Shown in pieces: positions 44,512 to 46,963 of a DNA stretch of 64,000 nt. The notes beneath the pieces are model-generated. The model had not been told where the DNA came from. It saw only the letters and a program-made list of their open reading frames with translations, and made no database searches. Every line of letters begins with the position of its first letter. Position 1 is the stretch's first letter. The stretch comes from Fibrobacter succinogenes (lineage in GTDB: Bacteria > Fibrobacterota > Fibrobacteria > Fibrobacterales > Fibrobacteraceae). The position numbers and the translations under genes are program-made. The stretch spans positions 186,001 to 250,000 of the forward strand of contig CACVQR010000004.1 in the NCBI GenBank assembly GCA_902756345.1, in the 5' to 3' direction.

Positions 44512-44602
44512 GATTTTACAGCGGCTCTTTATGAGCCGAGGGAAAACTGAAACTAAAAAATATGTATATTAATAAACACAATATCGTCAGTAAGGACTTC
44601 GT

Positions 44603-44965
44603 ATGAAACATCTATCTCTTCTTATTATTCTTCTCTATATTCCTCTCCAGGCTGATACCTGTAGACCTATATCCAATGACGATATATCCAATCTTGAAAA
44701 AGACTATGAATATACAGTCTCCGTAAAATCCGGCGTGGTTTGCGATTATCTAATATACTGGAAAGGATATACCAGTGACTTCTTAAAACAAGAAGTCTGT
44801 GAATATATTGACTTCAATTCCAACACAAAAAAAATCATAATTGGTAATACCTATAGATATTATCACTTTGATGAATTCAATGTCATTGATGACCAATCTA
44901 TAAAAGAAAACTCCAATATGAACTGTATTGACCTATATAAATCTTTCAAGAAAAAAATAAAATGA
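44603..44965 (+). CDS. Small secreted AT-rich hypothetical protein
   Basis: A 120-residue protein with a signal peptide (MKHLSLLIILLYIPLQADTC) and four further cysteines (VVCDYL, EVCEYI, MNCIDL and C20), probably disulphide-bonded outside the cytoplasm. Strongly AT-rich with a Lys-rich end. Directly upstream is a GGCTC-TTTAT-GAGCC hairpin of the local repeat family (44523-44537). Unknown function. Confidence 0.55.
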   Translation: MKHLSLLIILLYIPLQADTCRPISNDDISNLEKDYEYTVSVKSGVVCDYLIYWKGYTSDFLKQEVCEYIDFNSNTKKIIIGNTYRYYHFDEFNVIDDQSIKENSNMNCIDLYKSFKKKIK

Positions 44966-45060
44966 TTACTCTTTCCAAAATCAATAGACTTAGTGATAAA
45001 TATTCCCTACATGCAGTAACTGTTGTTGGTCCTATAGCAACCCTTTACAAGACAAGGTAA
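44962..45060 (+). CDS. Possible 32-residue ORF truncated by a repeat
   Basis: The ATG overlaps the previous stop (ATGA). The frame MITLSKINRLSDKYSLHAV continues TVVGPIATLYKTR; its last codons and stop come from a degenerate copy of the local hairpin repeat (CCTATAGCAACCCTTTACAAG). Probably the beginning of a lost gene. Weak evidence. Confidence 0.25.
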   Translation: MITLSKINRLSDKYSLHAVTVVGPIATLYKTR

Positions 45061-45087
45061 AACTTGAGAGCGCAGAATGAAGTCCGG

Positions 45088-46194
45088 CTACATGGACGGC
45101 ACTTCGCACAATCTTTTCTCAATTTCCTCAATAGAGGGCATTGTGCCTTCAACCTTTTCAGGGTAGAATTTTTCCAATTCAAATTCCGAAATACTGATAG
45201 GTTGCGTACTTGATTCCAGTGCGTACTGTGCCTGCACCTTGTCCTTTTCCTTGCAAATCAGCAGACCGATTGTCGGGTTGTCGCGCCCTTCCTTTTTAAG
45301 GATGTGGTTGCATGCCACCATGTATCCGCCCAATTGCCCGATATCGGCAAATTCAAAGCGCCCGATTTTCACCTCGACAACGACATAGCAAGAGAGATTC
45401 AGGTTGTAAAAAAGCAAATCCATGAATTTCTCCCTTTCGCCCACCATAATGCCATATTCCCTGCCGACATAGGCAAATCCCGTGCCTAACTCCACAAGAA
45501 AACGGGTAATGTTGTTCAGCAAACTATCTTTCAGCAGTTTTTCGTTGTAGCGGCCCGTAATACCCGTAAACGCGAAATTGTAAGGATCCTTCGTCAGTTC
45601 CTGGGCCAAATCGCTTGTTTCGGCGGGGAGAGTCCGTCCAAAATTCGTCAACGCCTTTCCCTGGCGCTCGTAAAGGTCACTTGAAAGCGCATTCAAAAGG
45701 GACGAACGGCTCCAGCCATTTTCTACCGTCTGGCGGGCAAAAAACAGGGCCTTTTGAGGATTTTCCTTGAACTTGTCCATTAAGACAACGTGATGTCCCC
45801 ATGGAATTGAAAAGATGTCATGGGCAATTTGCTCAACAACTTGTTGAGTAATTGGAAAATCTTCCTTTTGTTCCCCGATCTTGGGTGCATTTTCCAAATA
45901 GGGGCGATACATAAGATAAAAGTTCTTCATGTACAGAATGTTCGTGGGAGAAAAACAAGTGGCACTGGGAATCTGAGCCTTTAAGTCTCGGCTCAGATTC
46001 TTCATGAAGCCGCTGCCCCATTTGCTTTCAGCCTGCTTGGTTACAATATCGCGCCCCAATTCCCAGTAGTAGCGCAACATTTCGCTATTTACCTTCACCG
46101 CCGCCTTGATCTGGCTCTTGCGATAACGGGAAGAAAGTTCCTTGACCCAGTGAATGTAATCCTTGTCCAAGATATTGATAGATTTTTTCGACAT
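45088..46194 (-). CDS. YhcG/DUF1016 family PD-(D/E)xK nuclease
   Basis: A 368-residue protein from ATG 46194 (AGAGG 7 bases upstream). The N-terminal DUF1016_N half is helical (VNSEMLRYYWELGRDIVTKQAESKWGSGFMKNLSRDLK). The C-terminal half has the nuclease core: FMDLLFYNLNLSCYVVVEVKIGRFEFADIGQLGGYM, with Asp and E-x-K in the PD-(D/E)xK pattern. E. coli YhcG is the best-known relative; family members occur with restriction-modification and mobile elements, and the function is not settled. It is not next to a methylase here. Immediately upstream, ending at its ribosome binding site, is a roughly 300-nt segment full of stem-loops (46210-46510). Confidence 0.85.
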   Translation of the reverse strand: MSKKSINILDKDYIHWVKELSSRYRKSQIKAAVKVNSEMLRYYWELGRDIVTKQAESKWGSGFMKNLSRDLKAQIPSATCFSPTNILYMKNFYLMYRPYLENAPKIGEQKEDFPITQQVVEQIAHDIFSIPWGHHVVLMDKFKENPQKALFFARQTVENGWSRSSLLNALSSDLYERQGKALTNFGRTLPAETSDLAQELTKDPYNFAFTGITGRYNEKLLKDSLLNNITRFLVELGTGFAYVGREYGIMVGEREKFMDLLFYNLNLSCYVVVEVKIGRFEFADIGQLGGYMVACNHILKKEGRDNPTIGLLICKEKDKVQAQYALESSTQPISISEFELEKFYPEKVEGTMPSIEEIEKRLCEVPSM

Positions 46195-46209
46195 AGATAT
46201 CCTCTTAAA

Positions 46210-46510
46210 AATGGTTGCACAACGGTGCGAATACACCGTATAAACGATGCACTATACGCCCTTGCTTTTTTGCTTTGTAATGGAGTTTCCACGCCTTGCG
46301 TGGAATGGGATAATCTTGCAATTCTGTTGGCGGGGGCTTTCCCCGGCATTACCTGTCACTCTTTCGAATGAACCCGAGTAGGGTATTTTCCTACCAGCTA
46401 TCCAACAGGACCGTCAAGAAGGTTGATGGGCCCCGCCGCGAATGCACGTACGGACCAAATGGTCTATGTCGACTGTCGCGAGGATTATCGAATTACGATT
46501 GTAATATAAG
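46210..46510 (-). ncRNA. Candidate structured RNA or leader upstream of the YhcG-type nuclease
   Basis: At least seven inverted repeats lie in 300 bases: ATTAC/GTAAT (46492-46505), GACCA/TGGTC (46453-46464), CCTAC/GTAGG (46378-46394), CCCC/GGGG (46333-46344), CCACGC/GCGTGG (46289-46303), GTATA/TATAC (46238-46256) and CGGTG/CACCG (46223-46238). Two long-range pairings are also perfect: CTGTTGG (46324-46330) with CCAACAG (46402-46408), and GGCGGGG (46329-46335) with CCCCGCC (46431-46437), which are mutually pseudoknot-like or alternative. Hairpin loops are A-rich on the minus strand (AAAG, AAG, AAAATAC), favouring minus-strand RNA, which would end at the nuclease ribosome binding site. No convincing protein is coded. 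Layout and fold complexity resemble HEARO/omega-RNA upstream of iscB, but no iscB is present; this is inference. Confidence 0.4.
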
Positions 46511-46557
46511 TAAATGCGTACTCTCAGTCAAGGGGCACGCCGCCAGTTTCAAACCAC

Positions 46558-46807: not shown

Positions 46808-46886
46808 TTTTTCAGCGTCAAACCGCTTGCGAACCCGCATAAAACAAGGTATATTCAGAAAGTAGATCTTATAGGAGCTCTTTATG
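46808..46886 (+). repeat. 79-bp direct repeat, copy 1 (promoter/leader cassette)
   Basis: TTTTTCAGCGTCAAACCGC ... GCTTGCGAACCCGCATAAAA ... GGTATATTCAG ... CTTATAGGAGCTCTTTATG. About 85% identical to 48745-48822. It holds a TTG-N19/20-TATATTC promoter-like pair and ends in the local hairpin (here extended to GAGCTC-TTTAT-GAGCC). It precedes the 43-residue membrane protein gene. Confidence 0.85.
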
Positions 46887-46963
46887 AGCCGAGATAAAAC
46901 TGAAAATAATGTTCCGTCCGCCCCAAAAGAATCTATATTAAATGTGTAATGCGGAGGTGAAGA

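Follow-up and report, generated by a model that had tools for sequence, protein, structure and literature searches.

Structured leaders as such are already known in bacteria, and little is known about the control of accessory defence genes in these organisms. Several described systems come close to the RNA reported here from Fibrobacter. The HEARO/IscB omega RNA (RF02033) is, like the Fibrobacter RNA, a structured RNA of ~200 nt that occurs in multiple copies and lies directly 5' of a protein gene, which can be that of a nuclease; the Fibrobacter RNA, in contrast, shows no sequence or structure match to it and no 5' guide, has its own promoter at a fixed distance, and is partnered with three unrelated gene families and not with IscB. 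The DUF3800 motif RNAs of Rfam (e.g. RF02975, DUF3800-XI) are candidate structured RNAs beside poorly understood accessory genes, and the likeness lies in a structured RNA adjoining accessory genes, whereas one and the same Fibrobacter RNA serves several gene families; DUF3800-XI gave no match above threshold, only chance-level ones (E 5-10). The HK022 put RNA, the Bacillus EAR element, and the ompA 5' UTR are structured RNAs at the 5' end of transcripts that affect the genes following them, whatever these encode. By analogy, the Fibrobacter RNA may resemble such antitermination or stabilising leaders in its proposed way of working only, since it has no homology to them and mostly heads single-gene units. 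Riboswitches and attenuators share with it a conserved aptamer-like core, invariant junction bases, and a position upstream of genes, but the Fibrobacter RNA has no Rfam match and no visible terminator or platform sequestering the ribosome binding site, and its partners are accessory rather than metabolic genes. We are not aware of any RNA leader shared by many unrelated defence genes, and the swapping of a single leader between several families of candidate defence genes has, to our knowledge, not been described before. No paper describing this RNA was found in the open literature, which leaves many journals uncovered.

The locus lies in a 64,000-nt stretch of Fibrobacter succinogenes DNA (hereafter the window), in which the initial annotation had singled out a highly folded segment of about 300 nt (46210-46510) upstream of a DUF1016/YhcG gene whose start codon is at 46194 on the minus strand. 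The position was borne out, the segment being directly 5' of this gene (PF17761 + PF06250) and stopping at its ribosome binding site. So was the folding: the minus-strand RNA of 46200-46520 is unusually stable, at -99.1 kcal/mol as compared with -83.7 in shuffles (z = -3.2), and 0 of 100 shuffles were as stable. The extent needed revision, the conserved unit being 46306-46490 plus a promoter that reaches to 46531 (Table 1). The segment belongs to a strongly conserved, previously unlisted, Fibrobacteraceae-specific structured RNA family, of which it is one copy. A DNA search with the window segment found five copies of the core in the same genome, with 185-187 nt in common and sharp edges (CGAYAATCC...GCAAGANNATCCCA), and a covariance model built from these five recovered about 150 copies (best E-value 1e-58), many of them close relatives of one another; 66 of the 111 Fibrobacteraceae genomes searched carry at least one, and the 57 genomes from elsewhere in the phylum yielded no match. 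The distribution is patchy, with one to six copies per carrying genome, and the hosts are rumen and gut Fibrobacter. When a conserved 18-mer was scanned in 84,980 species, nearly all matches were to Fibrobacter. Of the six genome matches outside it, one is a truncated domain 1 on a contig from a horse-faeces MAG, and the other five were rejected as chance because they did not fit the RNA model. Pattern matches in viral contigs were rejected on the same ground, and plasmids and phages searched for the RNA gave no match.

Table 1. Features of the RNA locus, in window positions
Feature	Position	Strand	Basis or remarks
Promoter TTGACT, 17 nt, TATATT	46503..46531	-	10/12 matches; same box at fixed place across family
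Conserved structured RNA core, 185 nt, CGATAATCC...GCAAGATTATCCCA	46306..46490	-	Copies in same genome, family copies, covariation
Domain 1	46431..46483	-	Stem P1 (46483-46478 with 46436-46431) and hairpin P1b (46464-46461 with 46456-46453)
Domain 2	46314..46419	-	Stem P2 (46419-46402 with 46330-46314), closing junction of P3, P4, and P5
Domain 2 hairpins	P3 46395-46377, P4 46373-46355, P5 46345-46331	-	Covariation
Variable linker with local hairpins (TTTCCACGC/GCGTGGAAA adjoining core), ending in Shine-Dalgarno AGAGGA (46205-46200)	46195..46305	-	
DUF1016_N + YhcG_C (PD-(D/E)xK) gene, 368 aa	45088..46194	-	PF17761 + PF06250; PADLOC PDC-S02

The evidence for the fold comes from 30 diverse copies aligned with MAFFT independently of the covariance model (A7); for this alignment RNAalifold predicted 48 pairs, 21 of them with compensatory changes. 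Across the 44 pairs retained, 98.2% of the cells are paired and 21 pairs changed on both sides; none of 500 shuffles reached these values, and slid structures paired at most 58%. An alignment of 112 copies supports the same fold, with the caveat that it was fitted to the model. The covariation across homologous loci on which the proposal of a folded RNA hinged is therefore strong, P1 being paired throughout (100%) with two-sided changes in four of six pairs and P4 showing two-sided changes in all seven. Two 7-bp long-range pairings had been picked out from the letters. One of them, CTGTTGG/CCAACAG, lies within the main stem P2, making up its inner portion; over the stem as a whole, 96.7% of cells are paired. 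The other, GGCGGGG/CCCCGCC, was rejected as a pseudoknot or competing helix because about 18-24% of copies have A-C in place of two of its seven pairs, with no compensating change; its GGCGGGG bases belong to P1 and its CCCCGCC bases to P5/P2, and both P1 and P5/P2 covary. A helix (59-61/68-70) and the P1 register of our first model (R1) were likewise discarded as alignment artefacts, A7 placing P1 at 8-13/55-60. Because paired columns hold 820 G-U/U-G cells as against 191 A-C/C-A cells, the functional molecule should be RNA of the minus strand, which is the strand of the gene, rather than DNA or the other strand. Some variants of the RNA lack P3-P5, others most of domain 2, and still others carry an extra 75-nt domain. 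This additional domain, seen in the long copies L152, L153, and L157, is inserted at the domain-2 junction (GGGTGAGC..CCTTGAT..ATCAAGGGCGGATGCGAGAGTGAGG..CCGAACGGTC) and had no clear match in Rfam.

A large structured RNA adjoining a PD-(D/E)xK nuclease gene recalls an omega-like guide or scaffold, here of an RNA-guided DUF1016 nuclease, or else the relic of an IscB element, and both had been considered in the initial annotation; our results make this reading highly improbable. The Rfam comparison that it had suggested, with HEARO and all of Rfam (4227 families), gave no gathering-score match for the RNA. The HEARO model had no match in the region up to E=5 (permissive filters, 2351 nt) and none in the same genome, where it should be said that control genomes gave no HEARO match either, and there was no IscB-type match among 122 downstream ORFs. 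The relic reading is not supported, the RNA belonging to an intact, conserved, multicopy family, and the GAAAGAG..ACAGG string, which had suggested an omega-RNA likeness, sits in the variable hairpin P4 and is not the same between copies. A 5' guide could not be accommodated, since only about 6 nt of predicted transcript come ahead of the core, and the 3' flank is common within subfamilies and hairpin-forming rather than hypervariable as a guide would be; with most partners not being nucleases, an omega-like guide RNA is thus unlikely. The partner spectrum opposes it strongly, since two thirds of the copies precede families other than DUF1016. An RNA dedicated to the DUF1016 nuclease is too narrow a description for the same reason, and identical RNAs stand before different families.

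Taking as the downstream ORF the nearest substantial one on the same strand, with start codons and downstream genes picked by simple rules, 98 of the 122 (80%) come from three unrelated families, namely DUF1016/YhcG (39), SLFN_AlbA_2 with HATPase_c_4 (30), and ORF6N (29), and the remainder include HsdR (3), Bro-N (2), HipA, an RNA ligase, and a C5 methylase. Of the five RNAs of the window's own genome, two precede DUF1016, two AlbA_2, and one ORF6N, and in a hand tally covering nine well-assembled genomes, about 25 of the 31 RNAs had a same-strand member of these three families behind them. PADLOC lists the window gene as PDC-S02, a phage-defence candidate, and has PDC-S02, PDC-S05, and PDC-S13 among the partners, which also include HsdR; going by family names and these candidate lists, the partners would be mostly candidate phage-defence genes. 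Leaders have been exchanged repeatedly among these unrelated genes. The RNA tree, in which many branches are weak, needs 27 partner changes as compared with 43.8 when labels are shuffled, and its well-supported branches alone force five to six changes per group. One pair of copies, L046 and L047, has identical RNAs, the former before ORF6N and the latter before DUF1016.

The promoter travels with the RNA. TATATT occurs in the last 30 nt ahead of the core in 115 of 135 copies, its end lying 12-13 nt from the core across the family (5th-95th percentile), and the full arrangement TTGAN-N15-19-TATATT was found in 89 of 135 copies but in none of 135 upstream control stretches. With the box at so fixed a distance, the transcription start should coincide with the beginning of the RNA, only about 6 nt of predicted transcript preceding the core. 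The RNA is found repeatedly between this promoter and a same-strand gene, with different gene families. The order of parts, in which the promoter is followed by the RNA from about +6 and then by the linker, the ribosome site, and the gene, together with the unrelated partners, argues for a leader acting in cis over an RNA partner specific to one protein. Judged from sequence comparison, the swappable promoter and its ~185-nt two-domain RNA are probably a cis-acting 5' leader of accessory genes, perhaps working via a common cell factor; of the three options initially put forward, a cis-regulatory leader fits best, the IscB relic not being supported and the DUF1016-specific RNA being too narrow. 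The predicted transcript would start a few bases before the core and run as a 5' leader into the accessory gene. The invariant junction and loop bases of the leader would be recognised by the common factor, for which RNA polymerase or a Nus-type protein, the ribosome, a nuclease, or a ligand are candidates. The leader would then act in cis on the expression of whatever gene follows, and accessory and defence genes may thereby share one control or insulation signal.

The window copy showed no intrinsic terminator-like site in its leader, and the ribosome binding site is no more hidden than in shuffles (0.415 unpaired, as compared with 0.400 when the upstream sequence is shuffled). This gives no indication of a classic attenuator or a sequestering riboswitch, and the leader could affect elongation, RNA stability, or processing just as well as translation. 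Some observations fit a leader less well. Several copies, e.g. L126, L155, and L156, precede genes with an apparent promoter of their own, and only about a quarter of the genes in the three partner families (some 95 DUF1016, AlbA_2, and ORF6N genes by hand tally of the nine well-assembled genomes) carry the RNA. The genes with apparent promoters of their own are also what would be expected if the core were processed or terminated as a stand-alone RNA of ~190 nt acting in trans, e.g. by binding a host protein or by base-pairing, with the genes as mere passengers of the cassette; the RNA's own promoter and sharp ends, and the resemblance among extra copies within one genome, are in keeping with this. 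We consider such a trans-acting RNA unlikely, as in most copies a same-strand gene follows closely, typically about 110-160 nt past the core, 80% of the downstream ORFs come from just three families, and the window copy has no terminator.

The patchy distribution at one to six copies per genome, the 27 partner changes, and the tandem RNA-gene-RNA-gene arrays observed at L047, L050, L104, and L151 raise another explanation, in which promoter and RNA form the moving or recombining end of a cassette, selected for the spread or shuffling of cargo and not for regulation. A stretch serving merely as homology would not be expected to show compensatory changes that keep pairs on one strand, with G-U favoured over A-C; no integrase and no shared 3' end were found, and the window cassette occupies one conserved site in about ten species, where the same convergent GNAT gene adjoins it. 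Selection as a recombination handle is accordingly rather doubtful. A sharp-ended mobile cassette had been considered for the window copy itself, from an apparent left boundary at -45 in comparison with L122 and L074, and was rejected because the same GNAT gene follows in all three, the boundary reflecting altered upstream DNA.

One structured RNA might conceivably provide many unrelated candidate defence genes of Fibrobacteraceae with a shared control module, e.g. by sensing infection or a host component disturbed by phages, and an RNA-based defence regulon would then have been built by leader swapping; we put this forward as a tentative extension. A shared, swapped control element would link three families whose members have been catalogued only as candidate defence or accessory genes. 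The folded RNA that heads DUF1016, AlbA_2, ORF6N, and restriction genes offers a direct handle, with about 150 natural variants.

Further features were observed around the window locus. A 567-bp insertion (44530-45096), missing from the relatives L068, L070, and L075, lies at the extreme end of the DUF1016 gene, where it alters the last residues of the protein; it holds a 120-aa ORF (44603-44965) and is edged by 8-bp near-direct repeats (CGGCTCTT / CGGCACTT). A 30-bp hairpin-containing repeat (GGCTCTTTATGAGCCGAG..AAAACTGAAA) stands on both sides of the DUF1016 locus (44523-44552 and 46876-46905), these being its only copies in the whole genome, and a similar hairpin is found left of the RNA in L074 and L122.

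Between core and gene, the hairpins of the window linker (46195-46305) are not conserved, and the median distance from core end to start codon is 111-157 nt depending on the partner family. In L009 and L010 (C12 and C18 of the window's own genome), L057, L105, and L109, a tiny conserved ORF of about 60 aa with one CxxC (MFDEIFGKFNG...LRCPKCG.KLRYPRG) separates the RNA from the AlbA_2 or ORF6N gene. Another small ORF (MNITKHAFERMRERGFTVEMLGKVL..., possibly DUF4258-like) follows the RNA in L099, L126, L136, L144, L155, and L156; it has an apparent TTGACA/TATAAT promoter of its own inside an inverted repeat, and in L136 and L144 hsdR comes next. The linkers and gene N-termini of L043, L045, L047, and L055 contain repeated palindromes, e.g. 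GGTCACAAATTGTGACC and GTCGCAAATTGCGAC, which are partly translated as SQFVTSK/SQIATL repeats in ORF6N proteins.
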